A stretch of 64,000 nt of DNA. It comes from Glaciimonas sp. PAMC28666. Lineage in GTDB: Bacteria > Pseudomonadota > Gammaproteobacteria > Burkholderiales > Burkholderiaceae_D. The stretch's first letter is position 1, and every line of letters begins with the position of its first letter. The notes beneath the pieces were generated by a model. The model was not told the origin of the DNA. It worked only from the letters and a program-made list of their open reading frames with translations, and made no database searches. Below, one piece after another: positions 32,330 through 47,137 of this stretch. The DNA lies in NCBI RefSeq assembly GCF_016917355.1, contig NZ_CP070304.1, forward strand, positions 4,216,001 through 4,280,000, in the 5' to 3' direction. The translations under genes were made by a program, and so were the position numbers.

Positions 32330-32597
32330 ATCGAAACAACATTCGCCCCTATCAAAGATGCCGTAAATGTAGACAGACATGGCACCTCGCTGGCGGATCC
32401 AGCAAAATGGACCGGGGATTTGCGTTGATATGGAAAGATGCGCGAAATAACTACGGGCGTCGCGTCAATGATGTTGGGCAGAGTTAGACGGTCGCATCTA
32501 TAGCGCGTCATTTGTAGATCGACCGGAAGGTCGCCGAGTGATCAGCCTGAGAAAGGCAAATCTGCGAGAGGTGAAATACTATGACGGACAAACGTAA
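32330..32597 (+). pseudogene. brnT: Frameshifted brnT-like toxin gene
   Basis: No single frame is open, but three consecutive frames together rebuild a BrnT ribonuclease-type toxin. The first reads KDAVNVDRHGTSLADPAKW (from about 32350), the second ALIWKDARNNYGRR (after a shift near 32419) and the third DGRIYSASFVDRPEGRR and VISLRKANLREVKYYDG (after a shift near 32485). These match the BrnT pattern of KHG, DARxxYGE and RVISLRKAN. One base seems lost at each break, and no start codon is left in the first frame. The final frame ends 17 bases inside brnA, the normal overlap of a brnTA operon. The toxin is therefore almost certainly inactive. Confidence 0.75.
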
Positions 32598-32859
32598 AAT
32601 TATTTATCCGTCAGCGGAGGAAGACCCTGCAATTACGGCGGCCGCATTATCCGATTCCGACAATCTGCCTTGGACTGATGTGCAATTAGCGGAGCTTAAA
32701 CCTGTGCGGGTACGTGGTCGTCCTTTCGGAAGTGGCACGAAAGAGCAAATAACTATGCGCCTGGATGCTGATATTGTTGACGCGTTGAAGCGTGAAGGAG
32801 ATGGCTGGCAAACCAAAATGAACGGCGCATTGCGTGAGTGGTTGCAGGCGCATCGATAA
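32581..32859 (+). CDS. brnA: BrnA-family antitoxin
   Basis: A 92-residue protein whose C-terminal half is a ribbon-helix-helix DNA-binding domain typical of BrnA: EQITMRLDADIVDALKREG, then WQTKMNGALREWLQAHR. In intact systems BrnA neutralises BrnT and represses the brnTA promoter. AGAGGTG precedes the ATG. The reading frame is intact although the overlapping toxin gene is broken, so it is an orphan antitoxin. It could still act as a repressor or neutralise a toxin encoded elsewhere. Confidence 0.85.
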   Translation: MTDKRKIIYPSAEEDPAITAAALSDSDNLPWTDVQLAELKPVRVRGRPFGSGTKEQITMRLDADIVDALKREGDGWQTKMNGALREWLQAHR

Positions 32860-33347: not shown

Positions 33348-34286
33348 ATGGATCTCAATCAACTGGAAGCTTTTTCGGCAGTTATGACGATAGGCAGCGT
33401 GACGGGTGCGGGGCGCAGTCTCGGCCGTTCGCAGCCAGCGGTCAGCAAAGCGATCCAGGATCTGGAGAGCGAAATTGGCTATGCGTTGTTTGATCGTAAC
33501 GGTCCACGCGTGACGCCGACTGACCGCGCCTTTCTGCTTTATGAAGAAGTGGAGCGTTCACTAGTGGGCTTGCGCACCATCCAGGAACGGGCTGCAGAAA
33601 TTGGCCGCGACCGGTTACAGGCGATTCATTTGGTGGCTACGGCGGCGCTGGCTTCGACGATTGCTCCCGCAGCCTTGCAATTGGTGCGAGAGCAGGGCGG
33701 CACCTTGCCGGAACACATCCATTTGCGCAGCGCTTCGGCCGAACAAGTAGTGCATTCTGTCTTGCATCGCACAGTGAACCTGGGTTTGACCAGCTTACCA
33801 ATTGCGCATCGCGGTCTTGATCTGCACTGGATCGGTGAAGCGCCGTGCGTGGCCGTGATGCGCGCCGATAGTCCGCTGGCTAATTGTAGCGAAATAAGTG
33901 CGCAGGATTTACGCGACTCACGCATCATTACCTTGTCTAATCGCTACCGTTTGCGTCAGCGCATCGACGAGGCGTTGTGCCGCGACGGAGCGCCGCTCAA
34001 CGTGGCTATGGAAACCAATACTTCGTTTAATGCCATCATGGCCGTGCGGGCTGGCTTAGGCGTGGCGCTGGTGGAGCCGATGACGGCGCTGGGCATGCCG
34101 ATAGACGGGCTGACGGTGCGCCCGTTGGCGGTCCATGTTCCCTTTTATTTTGGCGTTGTTACGCCTTACGGCAAGCCCAACGACAGCGTTATTGATTCGC
34201 TCATCGGCGCACTGGAGACGGCGGCGCGCAATATTTTGCACGGCTTCATAAAACGCAAAGCGGCCGAACACGATAATTTGTTGTGA
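33348..34286 (+). CDS. LysR-family transcriptional regulator
   Basis: It has 312 residues. The N-terminal winged helix-turn-helix spans residues 1-60 (MDLNQLEAFSAVMTIGSVTG, then GRSLGRSQPAVSKAIQDLE), and the C-terminal two-lobed effector-binding domain covers about 90-300. It is encoded directly upstream of, and in the same direction as, the FAD oxidoreductase/ABC importer operon, 76 bp away. It is thus the likely regulator of that operon, with an unknown inducer. Same-strand placement is less common than divergent placement for LysR pairs. Confidence 0.92.
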   Translation: MDLNQLEAFSAVMTIGSVTGAGRSLGRSQPAVSKAIQDLESEIGYALFDRNGPRVTPTDRAFLLYEEVERSLVGLRTIQERAAEIGRDRLQAIHLVATAALASTIAPAALQLVREQGGTLPEHIHLRSASAEQVVHSVLHRTVNLGLTSLPIAHRGLDLHWIGEAPCVAVMRADSPLANCSEISAQDLRDSRIITLSNRYRLRQRIDEALCRDGAPLNVAMETNTSFNAIMAVRAGLGVALVEPMTALGMPIDGLTVRPLAVHVPFYFGVVTPYGKPNDSVIDSLIGALETAARNILHGFIKRKAAEHDNLL

Positions 34287-34362
34287 ACACTTAGCATGGT
34301 TCAGACCGTCCGTACGACTGCCCGTATTACCGCCCGCAATTATTGCATCAGGAGCCGCGCCA

Positions 34363-35877
34363 TTGAACGTTTCCCTTACCGCTTCCAATATTGCATCCGC
34401 TACTTCTTCGTCCGCGGGCCTCGCGCTGCTTGAAGCGCGTCTGCAGCAAGATCTGGCAGTGCTCGAATTACCCGCCAAATCCTGGGTGCCGAGCCTTACA
34501 AGGGAAGGCAGCCGGGTGTTGGACGTAGCGATTATCGGCGGCGGTCAAGCTGGTTTGGCGGCGGCGGCGTCCTTGCATCATCTGGGAATTGGCGCGGTAA
34601 TTTACGATCAGTCACCGGCCGGTTTCGAAGGGCCATGGGCCACCACGGCGCGTATGGAGACCCTGCGTTCGCCAAAAAAACTTACTGGACCGGCGCTGGG
34701 TTTTGCGGCGCTGACCTTCCGCGCCTGGTATGAAGCGCAATGGGGGATTGAGGCTTGGGAAGCGCTAGACAAGATTTCACGGTTGCAATGGATGGATTAT
34801 CTGCGCTGGTATCGGCGTGTGCTGAATCTGGATGTGCGTAACGAACACCGCATCGATGCCATCAGGCCGCGCGCCGACGGTGTGGTGGAATTATCCATCA
34901 GCGCCCCGTCCGGCACATTCACGGTGTTCGCGCGCCGCGTGGTGCTGGCGACCGGCCGCGACGGCCTCGGCGGCGCTACCGTGCCGCCAATTGCACAGAG
35001 CCTGCCGCGTGAATGCTGGGCGCATTCTTCTGATGTCATGGATTACAACTTGCTGGCCGGTCTGCGGGTAGGTGTCATCGGGGCTGGCGCTTCTGCCATG
35101 GATAGCGCCGCAACGGCGCTGGAAGCGGGGGCGGCACGCGTCGATTTGCTGATACGTCGGCACGAACTGCCGCGTGTCAATAAGGGCAAAGGCGCTGGCA
35201 GTCCCGGTTTGACTAATGGCCACTTCAATCTGCCGGATGCATGGAAATGGCGCGTCCGCCATTACATCAACCAGCAACAGACGCCACCGCCCAGCGCCAG
35301 TGTGATGCGCGTGGCGCGGCATGCGAATGCGCGTTTCCTGTTGGGGGCGCCGATCAACGCCATCGCCGTAAGCGAAGAGGGCCTGCGCGTGCGGACGCCG
35401 CGTGGCGTTTTCGCGCTGGATTTTCTTATTTTTTCCACTGGCTTCGTTATCAATCTGGCGGCACGCCCAGAGTTTTCCATCATCGCGCCGCACGTCCGCA
35501 CCTGGAGCGAGCGCTACACGCCGCCGGTCGGCGACGAAGACGAGGAACTGGCAGAATCGCCGGATCTGGGCCCGGTATTTGAATTTCAGCAAAAGCAGGC
35601 GGGCGCGCTGCCGGGCCTGGAGCGCGTGCATTGCTTCTGTTATCCGGCAGTGCTCAGCCATGGCACGCTGTCGGGCGATATTCCCGCCATCAGCGACGGC
35701 GCGCAACGTCTCGCGCAAGGAATTGCGGCGTTATTGTTCGGTGAAGATATCGACATGCATTATCTGAATATGCAACGGTATGTTGAGCCCGAACTGAACG
35801 GCGACGAATGGACACCGGCCGCTGCCAGCGCCGAAGAAATTGCCGCGCTAGTTGCGGCCACGGAAGGAGCGCGATGA
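34363..35877 (+). CDS. FAD/NAD(P)-binding oxidoreductase (flavin monooxygenase-like)
   Basis: It has 504 residues. The FAD Rossmann motif VAIIGGGQAGLAAAASL (GxGxxG at 59-64) and a second dinucleotide motif GVIGAGASAMDSAA (240-245) place it with FMO/SidA-like or thioredoxin-reductase-fold oxidases. There is no CxxxxC redox pair, so it is not a disulfide reductase of the lipoamide dehydrogenase type. An Ala/Ser-rich stretch of about 50 residues precedes the core. The start is TTG with AGGAG 8 bases upstream. It is first in the importer/AhpD/GcvH operon and its stop overlaps the permease start (ATGA). The substrate is unknown. Confidence 0.85.
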   Translation: MNVSLTASNIASATSSSAGLALLEARLQQDLAVLELPAKSWVPSLTREGSRVLDVAIIGGGQAGLAAAASLHHLGIGAVIYDQSPAGFEGPWATTARMETLRSPKKLTGPALGFAALTFRAWYEAQWGIEAWEALDKISRLQWMDYLRWYRRVLNLDVRNEHRIDAIRPRADGVVELSISAPSGTFTVFARRVVLATGRDGLGGATVPPIAQSLPRECWAHSSDVMDYNLLAGLRVGVIGAGASAMDSAATALEAGAARVDLLIRRHELPRVNKGKGAGSPGLTNGHFNLPDAWKWRVRHYINQQQTPPPSASVMRVARHANARFLLGAPINAIAVSEEGLRVRTPRGVFALDFLIFSTGFVINLAARPEFSIIAPHVRTWSERYTPPVGDEDEELAESPDLGPVFEFQQKQAGALPGLERVHCFCYPAVLSHGTLSGDIPAISDGAQRLAQGIAALLFGEDIDMHYLNMQRYVEPELNGDEWTPAAASAEEIAALVAATEGAR

Positions 35878-36848
35878 GCATCGCCATAATGCGCAGCGTC
35901 CTGCAAGCCCTGATGGTGGTGCTGCTAATGACAGTGATCGTCTTCTTCGGCCTGTACCTGATCGGCAATCCGGTCGATATTCTGATCGGCCAGGACGTAG
36001 ATCAGGTGGATCGTTTGCGCATCATTCACGAACTGGGTTTGGATCAGCCGATGTGGCGTCAGTATCTGGCCTTTTTGAATGGCGCCTTGCATGGCAATCT
36101 GGGCAACAGTTTTGTCTATAACGAGCCGGCTATCAAACTGATACTGCAGCGTTTTCCGGCCACCCTGGAATTGGCGTTTGCGGCATTGATCATGGCCGTG
36201 GTGATCGGTATTCCGCTGGGTCTGCTGGCCGGGCTGTTTCCAGAAAGTATTTTTTCCAAACTGGTCATGACGGGCAGCATTTTAGGCTTTTCTTTGCCCA
36301 CGTTCTGGATTGGCCTGATGCTTATCATGGCCTTCAGCGTGACGCTGGGATGGCTACCTTCGGGCGGACGCGGCACCACGGCCGAACTATTCGGCGTGCA
36401 ATGGTCGTGGCTCACGGCCGACGGTTTGCGCCACATGATTTTGCCGGCGATCAATCTGGCACTGTTCAAAATTTCGCTGGTAATTCGCCTGACCCGTGCC
36501 AATGTACGCGAAGTCTTGCCTATGGATTTCGTCAAATTTGCGCGGGCCAAGGGCCTCTCACCGCTGCGAGTGGTACTCAACCATGTGTTGCGCAATACGA
36601 TGATTCCGCTGGTCACGGTGCTGGGCCTGGAACTGGGTTCGACTATCGCATTTGCGGTGGTCACAGAAAGCATCTTCGCCTGGCCGGGTGCTGGAAAACT
36701 CATTCTGGACAGCATTAACTCGCTCGACCGGCCAGTGATTGTGGCCTACATGATGGTCATCGTTTGCCTGTTTGTGACGCTCAATCTGCTAGTGGACGTA
36801 TTGTATAAATTCCTGGACCCGCGCTTGCGCGTGGAGGTGCGCGCATGA
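35874..36848 (+). CDS. Peptide-type ABC transporter permease (DppB-like)
   Basis: Inner-membrane permease of the binding-protein-dependent DppB/OppB family with 324 residues. The ATG at 35874, preceded by GGAAGGAG, gives the usual N-terminus with an immediate membrane helix (LMVVLLMTVIVFFGLYLI) and the family block of about 100 residues before the core. Six membrane segments are expected. The C-terminal core contains the EAA-type loop (DFVKFARAKGLSPLRVVLNH). It overlaps the genes on both sides by ATGA, so all transporter parts are co-translated. Confidence 0.93.
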   Translation: MSIAIMRSVLQALMVVLLMTVIVFFGLYLIGNPVDILIGQDVDQVDRLRIIHELGLDQPMWRQYLAFLNGALHGNLGNSFVYNEPAIKLILQRFPATLELAFAALIMAVVIGIPLGLLAGLFPESIFSKLVMTGSILGFSLPTFWIGLMLIMAFSVTLGWLPSGGRGTTAELFGVQWSWLTADGLRHMILPAINLALFKISLVIRLTRANVREVLPMDFVKFARAKGLSPLRVVLNHVLRNTMIPLVTVLGLELGSTIAFAVVTESIFAWPGAGKLILDSINSLDRPVIVAYMMVIVCLFVTLNLLVDVLYKFLDPRLRVEVRA

Positions 36849-37807
36849 ACCAACCGCTCAAACAGCCGGTACCGGTGTTGCCGGAAGCGCTGGCCGACAT
36901 CACGGCGCTGTCTTTGCCACCACCGCCTTTGCGTGAATCACCATGGCGTCGCATGGCATCCAATTTCCTGGAATCCAGAATAGCCGTGCTGGGTCTGGTG
37001 GTGTCCGCGCTATTAATTATTGCTGCGCTGGGGGCACCCTGGCTGACGCCGCAAAACCCTTATGATCTGATGCAACTGGATGTGCTGGACGCTCGTCTGC
37101 ATCCGGGCACGCTCAATGGCTTGGGCACTTTCACTTATTGGCTGGGCACGGACGGTCAGGGCCGCGATCTGTTTTCGGGGATTCTCTACGGCTTGCGCAT
37201 CAGCGTCGGCATCGGTGTCGGCTCAGCGCTGATCGCTGGCCTGATCGGCACCATGGCCGGGTTACTGGCGGCTTATGTCGGCGGCAAGACCGATGCGTTG
37301 CTGATGCGGTCGGCAGACCTGGTCTTGTCGTTCCCATCGATACTGGTGGCGATGCTGATTCTGGCATATCTCGGCAAGGGCATCATGAATGTGATGGTGA
37401 CACTGGTCGTGCTGGAATGGGCCTACTATGCGCGCACGGCGCGTGGCCAGGCGCTGGTCGAGCGCCAAAAGGAATACGTCGAAGCCGCGCGCGGCCTGGG
37501 TCTGCCTGCCTGGCGCATCATGGTGTATCACATCTTGCCCAATTGCCTGCCGCCGCTGATCGTGGTCTGTACCTTGCAGATCGCCCGTGCCATCACGCTG
37601 GAAGCCACACTCAGCTTCCTCGGCCTGGGCGTGCCGATTACCGAACCATCGTTAGGATTACTGATTTCCAACGGTTATCAAACCATGTTGTCTGGCGAAT
37701 ACTGGATCAGTTTTTATCCCGGCATTGCCTTGTTAATTGTCATTGTTGCGATCAACCTGGTGAGCGATCGCCTGCGCGACGTGATGAATCCGAGGTATCA
37801 GAAATGA
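36845..37807 (+). CDS. Peptide-type ABC transporter permease (DppC-like)
   Basis: Second membrane subunit, 320 residues. A cytoplasmic Pro/Leu-rich tail of about 40 residues is followed by the first membrane helix (IAVLGLVVSALLIIAALG), the periplasmic region with GTDGQGRDLFSGILYGLRI, typical of DppC, and the EAA loop (EYVEAARGLGLPAWRIMVYH) that contacts the ATPases. The start and stop overlap neighbouring genes as ATGA. The importer thus has the complete B-C-D-F set in order. Confidence 0.93.
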   Translation: MNQPLKQPVPVLPEALADITALSLPPPPLRESPWRRMASNFLESRIAVLGLVVSALLIIAALGAPWLTPQNPYDLMQLDVLDARLHPGTLNGLGTFTYWLGTDGQGRDLFSGILYGLRISVGIGVGSALIAGLIGTMAGLLAAYVGGKTDALLMRSADLVLSFPSILVAMLILAYLGKGIMNVMVTLVVLEWAYYARTARGQALVERQKEYVEAARGLGLPAWRIMVYHILPNCLPPLIVVCTLQIARAITLEATLSFLGLGVPITEPSLGLLISNGYQTMLSGEYWISFYPGIALLIVIVAINLVSDRLRDVMNPRYQK

Positions 37808-38796
37808 GCGTGCCAACATTGGAAGTGCGCAATCTGCGCACGCATTTCTTTACCCGTGAAGGCGTCTTGCCAGCGGTCGATGATGTTTCGCTCAAGCTCG
37901 AACGCGGACAAATTCTCGGGCTCGTTGGCGAATCCGGTTCCGGCAAGACGGTGACGGGTTTTTCCATACTCGGTCTGGTGGATGCGCCGGGGAAGATCGT
38001 CAGTGGCGAAATTTTGTTCCAGGGCCGCGACCTGACCAAGCTTAGTCCTAAAGAAATGCGCGCACTGCAAGGCAACCGCATTGCAATGATCTTTCAGGAC
38101 CCGATGATGACACTCAACCCAGTGCTGCGGGTGGATGCGCAAATGATAGAAGCGGTCCGCGCGCACAGCAAGGCAAGTCACACGCAAGCGCGCGAACTGG
38201 CACGTGACACGCTCGGCATGATGGGAATTCCCAGCCCCGAGGAACGGCTGTTGGCGTATCCGCATCAGTTATCGGGCGGCATGCGTCAGCGCGTGGCAAT
38301 TGCCATTGCCATGCTGCATAAGCCTGACCTGATCATTGCCGACGAACCGACGACTGCATTGGATGTGACAATACAGGCGCAGATTCTGTCCGAAGTCCAG
38401 AATCTGGCGCGTCTCCACGGCACGGCACTGATTTGGATTACCCATGATTTATCGGTCGTGGCAGGATTGGCCGATCAGGTCGCGGTGATGTATTCGGGCC
38501 GCATTGTGGAGCAGGGTAGCGTGGCCGACGTACTGGACCGTCCCTTACATCCCTATACCAGCGGCCTGATCGGCAGTCTGCCCAGCAATAACCGGCGCGG
38601 GCAACGCTTGCGTCAAATTCCCGGCATGACGCCGAATCTCCTGCATCTCCCGCCGACCTGCGCGTTCGCGGCGCGCTGTGAACGCGTTAGCGAGGTTTGC
38701 ATCGAACGACCTGCCTTGCGTGAAACAGCGCCTGCGCATTTCGTTCGCTGTTTTCATCCTGGCAGTCAAGTCAACGCCAATGGAGAGGCCTTATGA
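37804..38796 (+). CDS. Peptide-type ABC transporter ATP-binding protein (DppD-like)
   Basis: It has 330 residues from the ATG at 37804; the same frame is open far upstream, but that part lies inside the permease gene. Walker A is GESGSGKT, the signature is LSGGMRQR and Walker B is [12 protein letters not shown]. The C-terminal oligopeptide/dipeptide domain has a Cys-containing tail (TCAFAARCERVSEVC), in many family members an iron-sulfur binding site. It powers import together with the next gene product. Confidence 0.94.
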   Translation: MSVPTLEVRNLRTHFFTREGVLPAVDDVSLKLERGQILGLVGESGSGKTVTGFSILGLVDAPGKIVSGEILFQGRDLTKLSPKEMRALQGNRIAMIFQDPMMTLNPVLRVDAQMIEAVRAHSKASHTQARELARDTLGMMGIPSPEERLLAYPHQLSGGMRQRVAIAIAMLHKPDLIIADEPTTALDVTIQAQILSEVQNLARLHGTALIWITHDLSVVAGLADQVAVMYSGRIVEQGSVADVLDRPLHPYTSGLIGSLPSNNRRGQRLRQIPGMTPNLLHLPPTCAFAARCERVSEVCIERPALRETAPAHFVRCFHPGSQVNANGEAL

Positions 38797-39806
38797 GTCA
38801 GGAAAATATGCCGCCTCTGGTGGAAGTCAAAGATGTGAGCAAACGTTTTGGCGAACGTCGCCTGAGCACTGTCGCAAAAATGATGCAGGCGCGCGGCTGG
38901 GTGCAACCAGCACCGGTCACGCGCGCGTTGGATCATCTCGATCTGCAAGTGTATCCGGGAGAAGTTGTCGGCCTGGTGGGCGAGTCGGGATGCGGGAAAT
39001 CGACGCTCGGCCGCGTGGTCAGTGGCTTGTTGCTGCCATCGGCAGGTCAGGTGCTGATCGACGGTCAGGATCGCACCACATTGTCTTCGCAGCAAGAGCA
39101 TGATGCCAAGCTGAAGATACAGATGATTTTCCAGAACCCCTACGCCAGTCTCAATCCACGGCGTCGTGTCGATCAGATTATCGGCGAGGCGGCGCTGATT
39201 CACGGCAAGGTCAGCCGTGCTGAATTAGATGATTATGTCTGCGCACAAATGTTGCGCGCTGGACTGGACCCACAGTTACGCGACCGCTATCCGCACCAGT
39301 TCAGTGGCGGTCAGCGTCAGCGCATAGGCATTGCGCGGGCGTTGGCGGTGCAACCGCAGATGCTGGTGTGCGATGAAGCTGTCGCTGCGCTAGACGTATC
39401 CATCCAGGCGCAGATTCTCAATCTGTTCACGGATTTGCGGGAACAGTTAAATCTCACTTATTTGTTCATCAGCCATGATCTGGGCGTGGTGGAACATGTC
39501 TCGGATCGCGTAGTGATCATGTATCTGGGCCGTGTGGTTGAAAGTGCCGGCGTCGACGATTTGTTCACGCGCCCCAATCATCCCTATACGCAGGCCTTGC
39601 TGGCGGAAGTGCCGAGTCTGACGGTGCGCAAGAAACAATTTACCGCCATCAAGGGCGAAATTCCCAGCCCGCTGGCACCCCCATCGGGCTGTCATTTCCA
39701 CCCGCGCTGCCCGCACGCCATGGCGCGCTGCCGGGACCAGGCCCCGGTGCTGAAACAGATTGCGGCCGGGCATCAGAGCGCTTGTCATTTAAACGATGCA
39801 GCCTGA
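38793..39806 (+). CDS. Peptide-type ABC transporter ATP-binding protein (DppF-like)
   Basis: Second ATPase, 337 residues. Walker A is GESGCGKS, the signature is FSGGQRQR and the Walker B region is [12 protein letters not shown], where the usual EP is EA. That substitution leaves the catalytic Glu in place. The C-terminal tail carries the Cys pattern [15 protein letters not shown]. An unusual insertion of about 25 residues ([20 protein letters not shown]) lies between the N-terminal strand and Walker A. It overlaps the previous gene by ATGA. Confidence 0.93.
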
Positions 39807-39850
39807 TTTGCTTAGTTAGAGATATCAATTACCAAAATCCACCGAGGAAA

Positions 39851-41425
39851 ATGATGAAAAAAACGCTACTCTCCAGTTTATTCGCAGCAGCCCTGGTCAG
39901 CACTGGCGCGACTGGTGCGCAAACACTTAATATTGCCTTTGCCGATCCGCTATCCTCCATCGATCCGCAATTGAATAATCATGCCGGAGACCGCTCGGTG
40001 GACCTGCATTTTTGGGATTTGCTGGTGGAAAACAATTACAACAAGCTGCAACCTGGCTTGGCGGTGAGCTGGAAAAATATCGATCCCAAGACCTGGGAAT
40101 TCAAGCTACGGCCTAACGTCAAATGGCAAGATGGCAAACCGTTCACTGCCGACGATGTCATCTTCTCCTACCAACGCGCCCGCAGCGTGCCGGGCAGTCT
40201 GGCCACCTTCGCCGGTTACCTGCGCACGGTCGAATCAGTCACCGCCAAGGACCCGTTGACGTTAGTCATCAAGACCAATATCCCAAATCCCGATCTGCCA
40301 TTGAATCTGGCGTCTGTGCATATCGTCAGCAAACATGTCGGCGAGAAATCGACCACCGAAAACTATAACAGCGGTGCCGCCATGGTCGGCTCCGGTCCTT
40401 ACAAATTTGTCTCCTACACGCCGGGCGATCGCGTGGTGATGGAACGCAGCGATACCTACTGGGGGCCTAAGCAACTCTGGCAAAAAGTCAATTACCGCTA
40501 CATCAACAATGCCGCCGCGCGTACCGCCGCCCTTTTGTCGGGCGACGTGGATGTGATCGACAAAGTATCGGTATCAGACCTGACGCGCCTGAAGCAGTCA
40601 CCCAACGTTAAGGTCTATCCCTACGCTGGCCTGCGCGTATTGTTGCTGCAACCGAGCTTCCACGAAGGTCCCAGCCCTTACATCACCGATAACAATGGCA
40701 AGCAGTTAGACAAGAACCCGTTGCTTGACGTGCGGGTGCGCCGTGCGCTGTCGCTGGCGATCAACCGCAAGGCGATTGTAGACCGTATTTTGCAAGGCGC
40801 TGCATCGGAAGCCAATCAGTGGATGCCGAGCGGCACTTATGGTTACAACCCCGCCGTCAAAAATATCCCTAACGATGTCGTTCAGGCCAAAAAATTGCTG
40901 GCTGACGCGGGTTTCCCGGCCGGTTTCAAACTGACCATCCATGTGCCAAACGACCGCTACCCGCAAGCGCCAGAAACGGCACAGGCGGTGGCGCAATTCT
41001 GGACCCGGATTGGTGTTAAGACGCAGGTAGAAGTTCTGCCATGGGCCGCCTATGCTGCGCGTGCCAACAAAAATGAATTCGCCGTCAGTATGCTAGCCTG
41101 GGGTAACGGCACCGGCGAAGCCAGTTATGCGCTGGTCAACGTGTTGGCCACGGTAGATGCCAAGAAAGGTCTCGGCGCGTCAAACTGGGGCTACTACAGC
41201 AACCCGGCCGTGGACAAGGCGCTGGAAGATTCCACGGTCGAATTCGATTCCGCCAAGCGTGAAGCCATCCTTCGTAATTCGGTCAAAATCGTGTCTGACG
41301 ATGTCGGCGTGATTCCGCTGTATCACTATCAAAATGTGTGGGCCGCCAAGAAAGGCTTGAAGGTCACGCCTGCCAGCAGCGATCGCACCACCGCGATGAT
41401 GGTCACGCGCGACGGTCAGAAATAA
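39851..41425 (+). CDS. Periplasmic solute-binding protein, family 5 (peptide/opine type)
   Basis: It has 524 residues from the first of two adjacent ATGs, with GAGGAA just upstream. A signal peptide of about 23 residues ends at TGATGA/Q. The SBP family 5 fold is clear from AFADPLSSIDPQLNNHAGD, WEFKLRPNVKWQDGKPFTADD and DVRVRRALSLAINRKAIVD. From memory it resembles the group catalogued as KPN_01854-type binding proteins, which occur beside luciferase-like monooxygenases and CMD proteins. A profile search would be needed to confirm this. The ligand is unknown. Confidence 0.92.
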   Translation: MMKKTLLSSLFAAALVSTGATGAQTLNIAFADPLSSIDPQLNNHAGDRSVDLHFWDLLVENNYNKLQPGLAVSWKNIDPKTWEFKLRPNVKWQDGKPFTADDVIFSYQRARSVPGSLATFAGYLRTVESVTAKDPLTLVIKTNIPNPDLPLNLASVHIVSKHVGEKSTTENYNSGAAMVGSGPYKFVSYTPGDRVVMERSDTYWGPKQLWQKVNYRYINNAAARTAALLSGDVDVIDKVSVSDLTRLKQSPNVKVYPYAGLRVLLLQPSFHEGPSPYITDNNGKQLDKNPLLDVRVRRALSLAINRKAIVDRILQGAASEANQWMPSGTYGYNPAVKNIPNDVVQAKKLLADAGFPAGFKLTIHVPNDRYPQAPETAQAVAQFWTRIGVKTQVEVLPWAAYAARANKNEFAVSMLAWGNGTGEASYALVNVLATVDAKKGLGASNWGYYSNPAVDKALEDSTVEFDSAKREAILRNSVKIVSDDVGVIPLYHYQNVWAAKKGLKVTPASSDRTTAMMVTRDGQK

Positions 41426-41437
41426 GAGGGGGCGGCA

Positions 41438-42817
41438 ATGTCAGCCTTAACGCTCAATGTTGCGCCAGTGGATGATTTGATCGATGTGCCACGTCGCATT
41501 ATCGTCAGCGGCGCAGCCCCCGGTGCCGTGGTTGAGATCGTCAGCCAGACACTGCGTGCGGGTGTGCAATGGCACAGCCGTGCGTACTTTAGGGCCGATG
41601 CTGCGGGCGAAGTGGACTTGACGCAAATCGCGCCGTTGCCTTTGGACGGTGAGGGTACAAGCGATTATGCCGGGGTGTCGGCAATGGGTCTGCTATGGTC
41701 GCAGACGCCGCAACTGGCCGGCGGTCGCGAAGTATTCCATGCCGACGTCAGCGCGCCGCTGGAAACGGTGCTCGAAGCGCGTAGCGGCGAAGATACTGCC
41801 AATGCCGTGCTGGTGCAACGGCTGTGCGCAGAGGGCGTCAAACGGCGTGAATTGCGTAAGGACGACACGCAAGGCCACGGCTTGGTCGGTACGCTGTTTA
41901 CGCCGGCCGGTCCCGGCCCGCATCCGGCGGTGATGATACTCAATGGATCGGGTGGCGGCATCAATGCAGCACGCGCCGCCTTATATGCGTCACGCGGCGT
42001 GATGGCGCTGGCACTAGCCTATTTCAAGGCACCCGGTTTGTCCGACTATATCTCCAATACACCACTGGAATATTTTGCCCGGGGTCTGGACTGGATGCGG
42101 CACGAATTGCAACCCGAGCACGGTTTTGTAGCGTTAAGCGGCCAGTCGCGTGGCGGCGAACTGGTGCTGCTGCTGGCCGCGACCTTTCCGGAAAAAGTTT
42201 CCGCTGTGCTGGCCTATGTACCTAGTGCGCTGGTGCACAGCGGCCAGAATGCTGCTGATCCGGCCCTCGGGCGGGAAGGGCCGACCTGGCTGCTGCAAGG
42301 CAAGCCCTTGCCGCATCAATGGCAGGATAATCGTTTCGCCACTTGGGCACCCTTCGATGAAGGGCCATCGCCCCATCGTCACGCCTTGGCCATGCTCACC
42401 GCCTTGCAAGATGGGGACGCTGTGGCGCGCGCGCGCATCCCGGTAGAACTGATTAAGGCACCAGTGTTGCTAGTGTCGGCCACTGACGATGGTTCGTGGC
42501 CGTCCAGTCAGTATTGCCGTATGGTGAGCGATAAGCTGAACGAGGTTGAGCACCCGTATTCGGTGCAATGGTGCGATTATCAGGACGCCGGTCACGCCAT
42601 CCTGTTTCCCTACGTCCCGACCACCCAACTCAGTTATGCCCATCCCGTCTCGAGCCGCATTAGCACCGGTGGCGGCAATCCAGCCGCGAACGCCCGTGCC
42701 GATTGTGATTCCTGGCAGCATGCTCTGGCCTTCCTGAAAAAAGCGGCCGAATCACGCAGCAGTCCGACTCCACCGCAGACCTGTCCAGCCGAACCCCCAA
42801 CATTTAACGAGGAATGA
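41438..42817 (+). CDS. Acyl-CoA thioester hydrolase / BAAT-family alpha/beta hydrolase
   Basis: It has 459 residues. The N-terminal domain (about 1-130) is the immunoglobulin-like bile-acid-CoA hydrolase domain (DVPRRIIVSGAAPGA). The C-terminal alpha/beta hydrolase has the nucleophile elbow GQSRGGE with Ser237, then the Asp in SATDDGSWPS and the His in DAGHAI, a complete triad. The family cleaves acyl-CoA or transfers acyl groups to amino acids such as glycine or taurine. Here it follows the binding protein by 12 bp, so it probably acts on the imported compound or on its activated form. Confidence 0.88.
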   Translation: MSALTLNVAPVDDLIDVPRRIIVSGAAPGAVVEIVSQTLRAGVQWHSRAYFRADAAGEVDLTQIAPLPLDGEGTSDYAGVSAMGLLWSQTPQLAGGREVFHADVSAPLETVLEARSGEDTANAVLVQRLCAEGVKRRELRKDDTQGHGLVGTLFTPAGPGPHPAVMILNGSGGGINAARAALYASRGVMALALAYFKAPGLSDYISNTPLEYFARGLDWMRHELQPEHGFVALSGQSRGGELVLLLAATFPEKVSAVLAYVPSALVHSGQNAADPALGREGPTWLLQGKPLPHQWQDNRFATWAPFDEGPSPHRHALAMLTALQDGDAVARARIPVELIKAPVLLVSATDDGSWPSSQYCRMVSDKLNEVEHPYSVQWCDYQDAGHAILFPYVPTTQLSYAHPVSSRISTGGGNPAANARADCDSWQHALAFLKKAAESRSSPTPPQTCPAEPPTFNEE

Positions 42818-42821
42818 TGTC

Positions 42822-43364
42822 ATGAATAATCCAGTAACGGAAACCAGCGCTGACCACGACGTAGTCGATAGGCTGGTAGGTTTGCAATCCGGCAGCGCCA
42901 CCTACGATTTGCGTCATCAGCGCAAAAAAGTGGTCGCCGCCACTCAGGGGAGTTATGACACGCTGTTCGATCCCAGTCTTGCCGGCATCAGCCTGAACGA
43001 ACGCTTGTTGGTAGCGTTATATGCCTGCTGCCTTAGCGGTGCCGCCACTTTGGCAGCGCACTATCGCGACCGGCTGACTAGCTTGTTGCCAGTGCCCACC
43101 GAGCTGACCGCCGTAGAAACCGATGCGCCGGATCAATTGCCGGACGGTCGGCTGCGCGCCATGCTGCTCTTCACGCGTGCGCTCACGCAGCGTCCGGTGG
43201 AAGGTGATCAGGCGGCGCTGCAAAGCTTGCCAGCCGTCGGCATCAGCACACCGGCAGTGGTGGTGCTGGCCCAGTTGATTGCATTCATTTCGTATCAGGT
43301 ACGCGTGGTCGCCAGCCTCAAGGCCATGCAAGACGCCGCGCAACTTTCGGAGCAACCAGCATGA
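42822..43364 (+). CDS. CMD-domain protein (AhpD fold, catalytic residues missing)
   Basis: It has 180 residues. The block LNERLLVALYACCLSGAATL is the carboxymuconolactone-decarboxylase/AhpD helix pair. Unlike the next gene product, it has no CxxC: counted from Glu60, the positions of the redox cysteines are Ser72 and Ala75, and only an adjacent Cys69-Cys70 pair is present. From memory it fits the CMD Avi_7170 group, which occurs together with the following gene. I infer that it is a non-peroxidatic partner or a subunit of a mixed oligomer. It overlaps the next gene by ATGA. Confidence 0.85.
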   Translation: MNNPVTETSADHDVVDRLVGLQSGSATYDLRHQRKKVVAATQGSYDTLFDPSLAGISLNERLLVALYACCLSGAATLAAHYRDRLTSLLPVPTELTAVETDAPDQLPDGRLRAMLLFTRALTQRPVEGDQAALQSLPAVGISTPAVVVLAQLIAFISYQVRVVASLKAMQDAAQLSEQPA

Positions 43365-43951
43365 GCGCCATCATCAAATCCCACGGATTCACCAATGAAG
43401 TGCTGGAATGGAAAGCATGGCTTGACGTCATTGACCTGAACGCCGCCAGCGAAGACCAGCTCAAGGTATTGGCGGAAAGCCATCCAAAAGCCAGCACGTC
43501 GGATTACTACCTGTTTCTAGGTCACCAGCCGGATATTTTGCGCCAGCGTTCAGCGGCCTTTAACGCCATCATGTATGCGCCCGGTGGCATGTCGCGCGCG
43601 GAACGGGAACTGGGAGCAATGGTCGTCTCCCGCATTAACGGCTGCGTTTACTGCGCGTCAGTGCATGCGCAGCGTTTCGAGCAGATGGCCAAGCGCAACG
43701 ACACCGTACAGCAGGTATTTGACGATCCTTACAGCGCCGGTATCGATGCTCGCGAACAGGCGATTTCCACCTTTTCGGCCGCGCTCACCGATGCGCCCGA
43801 CGCTGTCGATGCGGTGGCGATCAAGGCGCTTAAAGATGTTGGGCTGACGGATCTGGAAATTCTCGATCTGGTGCATTCGGTCGCCATTTTTGCCTGGGCC
43901 AATCGCCTGATGCTAAATCTGGGTGAGCCCGTTTTTCCATCAGCGGTATAG
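43361..43951 (+). CDS. AhpD-like alkylhydroperoxidase domain protein
   Basis: It has 196 residues. The active-site block ERELGAMVVS then INGCVYCASVH carries Glu83, Cys95, Cys98 and His102, with the same spacing as the catalytic Glu118, Cys130, Cys133 and His137 of Mycobacterium AhpD. AhpD is a disulfide reductase/peroxidase that is itself reduced by a lipoyl domain. It matches, from memory, the Avi_7169 peroxidase-like group. It lies between the degenerate CMD gene (ATGA overlap) and the GcvH-like gene 35 bp downstream. Confidence 0.9.
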   Translation: MSAIIKSHGFTNEVLEWKAWLDVIDLNAASEDQLKVLAESHPKASTSDYYLFLGHQPDILRQRSAAFNAIMYAPGGMSRAERELGAMVVSRINGCVYCASVHAQRFEQMAKRNDTVQQVFDDPYSAGIDAREQAISTFSAALTDAPDAVDAVAIKALKDVGLTDLEILDLVHSVAIFAWANRLMLNLGEPVFPSAV

Positions 43952-43986
43952 TTTGCTTGTTACACACCACCTTCAAAGGAAACCTC

Positions 43987-44370
43987 ATGTCCACCGCATT
44001 TCCCACTGATGTTGTCTATACCGAAACGCACGAATGGATACGCATCGAAGCTGATGGCAGCCTGACCGTCGGTATCACCGATTTCGGGCAGGAGCAGCTT
44101 GGTTCTCTGGTCTATGTGGCGTTGCCGCAGATCGGGGCTCAGCTCACAGGCGGGGCCGACGCTGGCGTGGTCGAATCGAACAAGACCGCATCCGACGTTC
44201 ACGCACCGGTCTCCGGCACGGTGCTGAGCGTCAATGAAGTACTCAACGAAACGCCAGAAGCCATCAACGCCGCGCCTTACGTACAATGGATTTTTAAGTT
44301 ACAGCCAGACGCCGATTTCGACGCTGCCATCTTCCTTGATGCTGCCGCCTATTGCGCCATGATCGGCTAG
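43987..44370 (+). CDS. gcvH: GcvH-like lipoyl carrier protein
   Basis: It has 127 residues from the ATG at 43987, preceded by AAAGGA. The upstream in-frame start adds ten unconserved residues. The sequence has the GcvH fold with THEWIRIEADGSLTVGITDF and the lipoylation motif VESNKTASDVHAPVSG, with Lys66 as the attachment site. GcvH normally shuttles aminomethyl groups in glycine cleavage, but no gcvT, gcvP or other glycine-cleavage gene is near. Here it closes an operon with AhpD-like proteins, which suggests use as a lipoyl redox carrier. A second, housekeeping gcvH elsewhere is expected but cannot be seen. Confidence 0.9.
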   Translation: MSTAFPTDVVYTETHEWIRIEADGSLTVGITDFGQEQLGSLVYVALPQIGAQLTGGADAGVVESNKTASDVHAPVSGTVLSVNEVLNETPEAINAAPYVQWIFKLQPDADFDAAIFLDAAAYCAMIG

Positions 44371-45714: not shown

Positions 45715-45735
45715 GGGGACCATTTTACGGTCCTC
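45715..45735. terminator. Hairpin between convergent GntR and lipoprotein genes
   Basis: GGACC and GGTCC pair around ATTTTAC in the 20-bp gap between two convergent stop codons. It is short and lacks a T run, hence low confidence. Confidence 0.35.
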
Positions 45736-46249
45736 ATTGCAAACTGCCCCACCGCTCTGCCGCAGGCTCTGCTGCCGCCCATTTCCACACATCGTCGCTA
45801 CGACAAGCGCTAGTGACGTACCAGGCGCGCTGCAACGTCGGGCCATCTCCAGTATCAACCGAAAAGATCACCTCCTTGCACAAAGCCAGTGGTGTATCGA
45901 TCAGACGGGTGACGCGCACTTCTCCGTGTTCGTTGCCATAGTTGACGGAATGAACGATCGCCCAGTTGTGCGACTGGCCAACCTCAAGATTGCCGATCAC
46001 TGCCGCGATTTCATCCTGCTCCGCTTTCTGCCAATTGCGGAACACATATTTGGTGGTCGCATCGGTGGCAGCCTGTACGCTCAGACCGATCGCATAGCCG
46101 ACTGCCGGATTTGAGGTCACCGCACCGCTGGCAACACCGGCCGCGGCACCCGCAAACCCACCGATGCTGCTGCAACCGCTTAGCCCTGCTGCTGCGATGA
46201 ACAACAGCGTACCCACAACGGTTTTGTGCGACAACCCATCACGCCGCAT
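45734..46249 (-). CDS. Lipoprotein, downstream member of a tandem pair
   Basis: A 171-residue protein. The lipobox LSGC gives a lipidated Cys26. A Gly/Ala-rich segment follows (GGFAGAAAGVASGAV), like glycine-zipper envelope proteins, then a soluble domain with two Cys and the C-terminal block WKWAAAEPAAERWGSLQ. The ATG at 46249 overlaps the stop of the upstream paralogue by one base (TGATG). An in-frame start 18 bases further upstream is less likely. The function is unknown; it is probably anchored to the outer membrane. Confidence 0.85.
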   Translation of the reverse strand: MRRDGLSHKTVVGTLLFIAAAGLSGCSSIGGFAGAAAGVASGAVTSNPAVGYAIGLSVQAATDATTKYVFRNWQKAEQDEIAAVIGNLEVGQSHNWAIVHSVNYGNEHGEVRVTRLIDTPLALCKEVIFSVDTGDGPTLQRAWYVTSACRSDDVWKWAAAEPAAERWGSLQ

Positions 46250-46773
46250 CACTGCAATGCTCCCCAACGCTCAGTTGCCGGTTCTGCCGATGCCCATTTC
46301 CAGGATGCACCGGAACGGCAGATCGTCGCTACATAAAATTCGGTTGTAGCATTCGGAAGCTTATCGACCAGGCCATCGATGGAAAATACAATTTCCTTGC
46401 AATCCATGCCTTGGCTGCTGATGATCCTGCTCACGGTAGCGCGACCGCGTTCATTGTCTTCCAGCGGCAGCGAATGTTTCACCTGCCAGTTGATTACCGC
46501 GCCGACAGCAAGGTCGCCCGCTGCAGTTGCGATCACATCTTGCTCTTCTGCATGGATCTTGCGCTGTTCGTACTGTATCCCGGCGCGTGCCGCCGCCTGC
46601 ACACCAAGGCCAATACCGGCAGCCACCGCAGCGTTATTGGTGACCTTTGTCGCTATCACGGTACCGGCAACCCCTGCCGCCGCAGACCCGCCTTCGGTCA
46701 CGACCGAACTACACCCACTCAGTACCAATGTGCCAGACAATGCCAGCAGAGCACTTAACCGTTTTAACTGCAT
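46249..46773 (-). CDS. Lipoprotein, upstream member of a tandem pair
   Basis: A 174-residue paralogue of the next gene product. The lipobox LSGC places the lipidated Cys at 21. A Gly/Ala-rich segment follows, then a domain with INWQVKHSLPLEDNERG and the C-terminal WKWASAEPATERWGALQ, nearly the same as in its neighbour. The ATG at 46773 starts a compact signal peptide; the frame is open 20 codons further upstream without a signal there. The two genes are translationally coupled and look like a recent tandem duplication. Confidence 0.85.
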   Translation of the reverse strand: MQLKRLSALLALSGTLVLSGCSSVVTEGGSAAAGVAGTVIATKVTNNAAVAAGIGLGVQAAARAGIQYEQRKIHAEEQDVIATAAGDLAVGAVINWQVKHSLPLEDNERGRATVSRIISSQGMDCKEIVFSIDGLVDKLPNATTEFYVATICRSGASWKWASAEPATERWGALQ

Positions 46774-47137
46774 TCTCGCTTCCAATAAAGTTGCTTCAAT
46801 GGTATCAACGTTGTGCTGACGACCATCCGCCAAAGCGGCAGGGAAGATTTTAGAGGAAAAAGGGGCAATTCAGGGTTGAACGAAGGCAATAATATGTGAA
46901 TTTTTGTGAAATCGCCTTATGATCGTTTGATCGATAGCGGGCAAATTTTAAGCTCTGATCATCACGCTCATTCATGGCTGTGCAAATGGCGATGTCCGAC
47001 ATGGCGTTTGACGTCATGCTGGACACCAGTATTCGGAACCCAGATTCGTTCAGAAAAATTTTTTGGTACGCAATATCAACGCGATGGCATCCTCTTACGA
47101 TAAGCTTGATGTCACCGCAACCTTCTTTAAGACCGCG
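46774..47137. other. Intergenic region upstream of the lipoprotein pair
   Basis: 364 bp without a supported gene. It should contain the lipoprotein promoter on the minus strand. I see no hairpin or repeat worth naming. Confidence 0.4.

Follow-up and report, generated by a model that had tools for sequence, protein, structure and literature searches.

The window analysed here is a stretch of 64,000 nucleotides from Glaciimonas sp. PAMC28666 (contig NZ_CP070304.1, positions 4,216,001 to 4,280,000), and it features a ten-gene operon on the forward strand (34363-44370, window numbering) that ends with a gene for a GcvH-like lipoyl protein (43987..44370) directly behind a gene for an AhpD-family protein (43361..43951). 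We propose, with a probability of roughly 60%, that the GcvH-like protein serves AhpD as its dedicated lipoyl electron carrier, within a LysR-associated oxidative catabolic operon. GcvH-type carriers that do not serve glycine cleavage are already known, namely LbpA and GcvH-L; the protein described here is best read as a specialised carrier that is tied to an AhpD-monooxygenase operon and retained in genomes without glycine decarboxylase (GcvP). The other genes of the operon encode an FAD/NAD(P) oxidoreductase (FADox), an Opp-type ABC importer with its binding protein, a BAAT/ACOT-type hydrolase, and a CMD/AhpD-fold protein (CMD). An initial annotation of the window had described ten consecutive genes of these families, and profile searches against Pfam and TIGRFAM recover all ten with the families as named.

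The distribution of gcvH was followed in the Herbaspirillum-type genus, the genus of genome G029 (34 genomes). The genus labels, g26 for the Herbaspirillum type and g28 for the Collimonas type, come from our own matching of locus coordinates, by which the Duganella-labelled metagenome-assembled genome L072 falls in g26. GcvP scored over its cut-off in 1/34 genomes, with five more matches that are weak and below it. Full-length GcvH over the cut-off was found in 30/34, the extra matches being fragments that score no more than 24.3 bits, and a close AhpD is also present in 30/34. In 29 of the 34 genomes gcvH lies 7-57 bp behind ahpD and its product features the ESNK motif (29/29), and these genomes have no other full-length GcvH and no GcvP over the cut-off. 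Genome G693 features GcvP with an adjoining gcvH, and its operon is complete but for gcvH. The remaining four genomes (G684, G691, G692, and G687) have no GcvP, no GcvH over the cut-off and no close AhpD; G687 is 63% complete and features an AhpD of another kind (44%). Within this genus, a genome without GcvP thus encodes GcvH if it has the close AhpD, and otherwise does not. In a sample of 245 genomes from the family, a GcvH that matches the window GcvH at E <= 1e-40 was found in 19, and the AhpD also occurs in 18 of those. The nineteenth, G613, encodes a GcvH that groups with the other GcvHs, from a gcvH that adjoins a GcvP gene, and all 18 genomes with the operon-type GcvH also carry the AhpD.

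The operon GcvH shares with the glycine cleavage H protein its family (PF01597, 114 bits for the window protein), its lipoyl lysine motif and its equivalog score, the window protein passing the TIGR00527 cut-off with 120.8 vs 115.85 bits. The lipoyl-attachment lysine is kept in the window protein (Lys66 in ESNKTASD) as it is in the 29 genus loci, and lipoylation is predicted from this motif. The differences are the absence of GcvP over the cut-off from the 29 genomes with an operon gcvH and a set of clade-specific substitutions. A glycine cleavage H protein is expected in a genome with GcvP, usually adjacent to it; GcvP over the cut-off was found in 0/29, and the GcvP gene of the window genome adjoins the other gcvH, in a separate gcvH-gcvP locus whose GcvH is 44-45% identical to the operon copy. 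A GcvH tree was built from 70 different proteins, 30 from operons and 40 others, after identical sequences had been merged, and the gcv context was checked among the 40 others for G000, G693, G613, and G021. All 30 operon GcvHs, including that of the window, lie on one side of one branch (100/98), and the second GcvH of the window genome lies elsewhere. The tree was made from a small number of columns and drew a program warning about the meeting of long branches, so that the place of the operon group among the other GcvHs is tentative. The residue before the lipoyl lysine is Asn in 30/30 operon GcvHs vs Val in 39/40 others, and position 34 is Gly in 30/30 vs Ala in 40/40. Additionally, the operon proteins feature Gln100 and Phe111 (30/30) and Phe116 (29/30), and they have lost Asp40 and Lys10, which are found in 39/40 and 34/40 of the others. 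Because there is no GcvP over the cut-off and the operon proteins form a separate branch with fixed changes, the operon GcvH of the 29 GcvP-less genomes is unlikely to be an ordinary glycine-cleavage H protein, and the name that TIGR00527 gives to the operon type, by a pass seen for the window protein, is likely a misnaming. The ratio of nonsynonymous to synonymous substitution rates (dN/dS) was calculated for 47 pairs of operon gcvH genes, and among the eight closest pairs, five have values of 0.03-0.20 and three have values of 0.35-0.38. All eight are below 1, which suggests that purifying selection acts on the gene.

The proposed partner of the carrier is encoded by what the initial annotation called an AhpD pair. 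Both proteins do feature the CMD/AhpD fold, but one is an AhpD with a CxxCxxxH motif and the other (42822..43364, no Pfam match) is a cysteine-less, TIGR04029-like CMD homologue that scores below the cut-off of that model (91.9 vs 100.75 bits). The window AhpD (PF02627; TIGR01926, 211.5 bits) is also below the TIGR04030 cut-off (184.6 vs 233.15 bits). Its motif reads CVYCASVH, and the CxxCxxxH of the AhpD-family active site is kept in 102/102 AhpD frames of the loci compared. CMD and AhpD are found in a single reading frame in 30/99 loci from several genera (e.g. L083, L089, L111, L271-L276, L285), and each of these 30 fused frames has exactly one CxxCxxxH. CxxC occurs in 2/69 separate CMD frames, both times within N-terminal extensions added by open reading frame extension. 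The gene fusions, with one CxxCxxxH per fused frame, support the reading that CMD and AhpD would act as one unit with cysteines only in the AhpD half.

A precedent is the AhpD of Mycobacterium tuberculosis, which, according to PMC8945050, is reduced by a lipoamide-containing acyltransferase with NADH as the source. The window AhpD shares the CxxC with this protein, and a lipoyl protein is proposed as electron donor here too. The two systems differ in that the M. tuberculosis donor is a subunit of a central-metabolism enzyme and AhpC is an acceptor, whereas the window operon features a stand-alone GcvH-type carrier and no AhpC was found among its ten proteins. By analogy, NADH would be the electron source, an ordinary dihydrolipoamide dehydrogenase, putatively Lpd, would hand the electrons on to the lipoyl arm, and the dihydrolipoyl arm of GcvH would re-reduce the CxxC of AhpD. 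Upstream of this step, the Opp-type ABC importer and its binding protein are predicted from their families to import an amino-acid- or peptide-like compound, which the BAAT/ACOT-type Ser hydrolase would hydrolyse and FADox, judged from its motifs, would oxidise as a class-B-type flavin monooxygenase. CMD/AhpD would then be the thiol-disulfide enzyme that partners the monooxygenase, either on its product or on peroxide that it makes. The same CMD-AhpD pair accompanies two unrelated monooxygenase types, which would suit either an AhpD that acts on a pathway intermediate or one that removes peroxide leaked by the flavin enzyme. In cells with glycine cleavage the ordinary GcvH may do the same job, and the operon copy would therefore be dispensable there; in cells that have lost glycine cleavage there is no GcvH other than the operon copy, which would be the reason that it is kept.

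A number of observations weigh against this assignment. Electron transfer from GcvH to AhpD, and any contact between the two, is a prediction made by analogy with the mycobacterial protein. In the four Herbaspirillum-type genomes that have neither GcvH over the cut-off nor a close AhpD, AhpD was the part of the operon that was sought. All 34 genomes come from a single genus and so do not count as independent observations, and a small number of events may account for the four empty ones. Glycine cleavage is kept in the window species, which nevertheless has the operon gcvH. A scan of AhpD loci covered one genome per species and kept the nearest loci, the best 80 of 475 relatives. A gcvH near the operon was found in 13/80 of these loci, all labelled Herbaspirillum or Duganella, in addition to the window, and the ahpD-gcvH adjacency was seen in one family only, the Oxalobacteraceae. 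In favour of the assignment, full-length GcvH is encoded somewhere in the genome for 20/20 operon or core-operon genomes in one set and 65/65 in another, vs 20/60 relatives in which the window GcvH has no match; the 65/65 co-occurrence is a weak test because GcvH is common outside the Oxalobacteraceae. Of the 80 named loci, 20 gave the first set, and the 65-genome set consists of 50 of the other 60 (left out were L087, L099, L109, L116, L123, L124, L127, L133, L139, and L144) and 15 further genomes. The 20 genomes were reached via loci and partly repeat the 34-genome and 65-genome sets (e.g. G448 = G516 and G449 = G574, with identical coordinates); at least two genomes are shared with the 65-genome set, and the counts are not summed.

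The Collimonas-type genomes that carry the operon show the same limit. No gcvH lies beside the operon in 5/6 of them, including two named Collimonas loci, and the contig of the sixth ends inside ahpD. The operon-type GcvH (E <= 1e-40) was found in none of the six, and a full-length GcvH was found in 6/6. The link that the initial annotation drew between the lipoyl protein and the AhpD operon is upheld in the 29 Herbaspirillum-type genomes in which GcvP is absent, but it is not general. The absence of gcvH beside the operon in relatives, which had been named beforehand as evidence against the link, is true for many of them, but those relatives tested carry a full-length GcvH elsewhere.

The operon GcvH might alternatively be a carrier of substrate. 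The lipoyl arm would then hold a covalent intermediate, such as a sulfur or acyl adduct, and present it to FADox, BAAT, and AhpD, as proposed for LbpA, and we consider this improbable. LbpA is a GcvH-resembling single lipoyl protein that, according to PMC6067878, has a non-glycine role and is needed for Hdr-like sulfur oxidation. A thioesterase-type hydrolase is encoded in the operon and the fixed changes adjoin the lipoyl lysine of the operon GcvHs, both of which are consistent with substrate carriage. LbpA proteins, however, feature two conserved cysteines and linkage to hdr-like genes; the operon GcvHs have 0 or 1 cysteine each (30/30) and no Hdr-type protein was found among the ten operon proteins, and most operon and core loci are without an adjoining GcvH. 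Membership in LbpA was rejected on the cysteines; the criteria, as worded in PMC6067878, allow exceptions for some archaeal LbpAs. GcvH-L, the GcvH-type carrier of the SirTM-macrodomain operon, is drawn in PMC5049849 with OYE and LLM flavin enzymes and is thus likewise a GcvH-type carrier in an operon with flavin enzymes. No sirtuin, macrodomain protein, or lipoate ligase (LplA2) was found among the ten genes, the LysR gene, and the two next genes, so that the linkage of GcvH-L is absent from this gene set. A broader version, which we regard as similarly improbable, is that the operon GcvH joins LbpA and GcvH-L as a third kind of GcvH-type carrier outside glycine cleavage, captured by the flavin monooxygenase-CMD-AhpD operon in those Oxalobacteraceae in which glycine cleavage was lost. 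Its arm would both pass electrons and shuttle covalent substrate between the monooxygenase, the hydrolase, and AhpD in a lipoyl-channelled catabolic pathway.

The position of gcvH as the last gene of the operon would also suit a passenger behind ahpD that is neutral, or is kept for lipoate metabolism as a lipoyl relay and not for AhpD. A relay of lipoate by GcvH is described for Bacillus subtilis in PMC6067878. This explanation is a doubtful one, slightly more so than substrate carriage. The dN/dS values below 1 in the eight closest pairs argue against a neutral gene. By our count the window GcvH has no match in 14/36 family members, some of them incomplete, so that GcvH is seemingly not needed for lipoylation in the family. 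GcvH over the cut-off is also missing from the Herbaspirillum-type genomes that have no close AhpD, three of them near-complete and the fourth 63% complete. The lipoate relay as the reason for retention is weakened by both of these absences. It is very unlikely that the operon gcvH encodes an ordinary second H protein for glycine cleavage in the window organism, for although the equivalog cut-off is passed and gcvP is present in the genome, it is accompanied by a gcvH of its own whose product is 44-45% identical to the operon copy, and the operon copy groups with GcvHs of GcvP-less genomes and is without residues present in 39-40/40 other GcvHs.

The initial annotation had rightly noted a resemblance to TIGRFAM groups, and these correspond to the TIGR04027-TIGR04030 cassette (LLM_KPN_01858, SBP_KPN_01854, CMD_Avi_7170, and perox_Avi_7169), which likewise features importer genes, a CMD with an AhpD-type protein, and a flavin monooxygenase. 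CMD and AhpD are fused in some of these cassettes too (L276). The cassette has a luciferase-like monooxygenase (LLM) where the window operon has FADox, and the window operon adds the BAAT hydrolase and, in some genomes, gcvH. The remark that such a monooxygenase is missing here was correct, as none of the ten operon proteins is an LLM or matches TIGR04027. The TIGR04027, TIGR04029, and TIGR04030 cut-offs are all passed in two loci from other proteobacteria (L276 and L278). L276 passes that of TIGR04028 as well, and the binding protein of L278 is of the branched-chain type. Because the window CMD and AhpD are below the TIGR04029 and TIGR04030 cut-offs, the window operon is a sister form of the cassette and not a member of it. 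KPN_01858, the LLM of the related cassette, is named in PMC7194016 among Klebsiella pneumoniae proteins that change with iron. Judged by titles, none of the literature found is about the FADox/LLM-CMD-AhpD cassette or an AhpD-GcvH link, and no functional study of the AhpD-monooxygenase module was found.

The order FADox-(OppBCDF-SBP-BAAT)-CMD-AhpD, where SBP is the solute-binding protein, recurs in other Burkholderiales and is therefore not due to chance. Of the 80 loci, 61 have BAAT and the importer genes inserted between FADox and AhpD, 18 have FADox followed by CMD-AhpD alone, and one is cut off upstream. On plasmids, FADox (47-60% identical), CMD, and AhpD were found together in 4/4 regions compared. 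In Rhizobium etli p42e (L290) their neighbour is a polar amino acid importer, with FADox and CMD-AhpD divergent, in Azospirillum (L291) they lie beside a branched-chain-type importer and CMD and AhpD appear as one gene, and in Nitratireductor (L293) they lie beside an octopine/nopaline dehydrogenase family gene. The Burkholderia arboris plasmid region is without annotation. Since FADox, CMD, and AhpD occur without this importer or beside others, these three genes make up the core, to which exchangeable importers are added. In two Bordetella genomospecies loci (L138 and L141) the operon is followed, after 1-2 kb, by a second, inverted BAAT homologue with 44% identity.

The operon was probably gained horizontally in the window species, because a close AhpD (E <= 1e-60) is missing in four same-genus genomes and the GC content of the ten genes is raised (58.0%, or 57.9% with the LysR gene, 33348-44370, vs 50.8% elsewhere in the window). 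The two trees place the window differently: the operon tree makes it the sister of Collimonas plus Herbaspirillum (97), whereas the GcvH tree joins it to a single Herbaspirillum row by long branches (100/93). The gcvH gene may therefore have reached the window lineage by a transfer of its own. On the best-fitting course of events, gcvH would have entered the operon in an ancestor of the Oxalobacteraceae and would later have been dropped where another GcvH remained, as in the Collimonas type and G693, with the window species keeping both.

The layout of the operon agrees with the description of several ATGA overlaps and otherwise close spacing. The overlaps are found at five junctions (FADox/OppB, OppB/OppC, OppC/OppD, OppD/OppF, and CMD/AhpD), and the other four intergenic gaps, taken from the gene coordinates, are 44, 12, 4, and 35 bp. 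FADox (34363..35877) starts with TTG after AGGAG. It is followed by the OppB/DppB-type permease (35874..36848; PF00528/PF19300, searched from 35877), the OppC/DppC-type permease (36845..37807; PF00528/PF12911), the OppD-type ATPase (37804..38796; PF00005/PF08352), and the OppF-type ATPase (38793..39806; PF00005/PF08352). The family 5 solute-binding protein (39851..41425; PF00496, 307.6 bits) and the BAAT/ACOT-type alpha/beta hydrolase (41438..42817; PF08840 and PF04775) precede CMD, AhpD, and GcvH, and the hydrolase features a GQSRG Ser nucleophile motif that was read from the sequence. A co-oriented gene for a LysR-type regulator (33348..34286, forward strand; PF00126/PF03466) precedes the operon, and its product gives weak matches to many regulators. 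The gene belongs with the cluster, because a LysR homologue lies immediately upstream of FADox in 70/80 related loci. On the 3' side, the profile search identified a gene for a DUF2784 protein and then one for a GntR/FCD regulator, and homologues of these neighbours were found in 0/80 related AhpD loci. A small upstream open reading frame (32581-32859) presumably resembles a BrnA-type antitoxin. Two adjacent, similar lipoprotein-like reading frames of 177 and 194 aa are located at 45734-46833 on the reverse strand, apparently a tandem duplication as judged by eye.

FADox features two glycine-rich dinucleotide motifs, seen in the conservation over 76 rows, and it matches Pyr_redox_3 (PF13738, 54.8 bits) and the lysine/ornithine monooxygenase family (PF13434, 50.4 bits) in Pfam. 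From these motifs we take it to be class-B monooxygenase-like. A search of solved structures with FADox found no close relative, the best match having an E of 5.6e-6 over a short stretch. The binding protein has 5u4o, AccA, and DppA as PDB relatives, and the resemblance to the DppA and agrocinopine types is distant. The structure matches of the hydrolase are ACOT4 and ACOT2. An amino-acid-like compound would be the simplest common denominator of the importers that flank the FADox-CMD-AhpD core. In R. etli, genes for TauE/SafE and MBL proteins lie near the core, perhaps in a separate operon, and these neighbours provide a lead, and a lead only, toward the use of sulfur by the pathway.

These results carry a warning for annotation, as the NCBI equivalog model for GcvH can assign that name where a role as glycine-cleavage H protein is unlikely. 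They also identify natural strains that have one full-length member of the GcvH family, a lipoyl protein encoded directly behind a thiol-redox gene, and no detectable GcvP; Herbaspirillum frisingense GSF30 (L076) is a strain without detectable GcvP. Such strains make the role of a free-standing lipoyl protein outside the classical complexes directly testable, and the operon GcvH offers a candidate reductant for the widespread AhpD-monooxygenase module.

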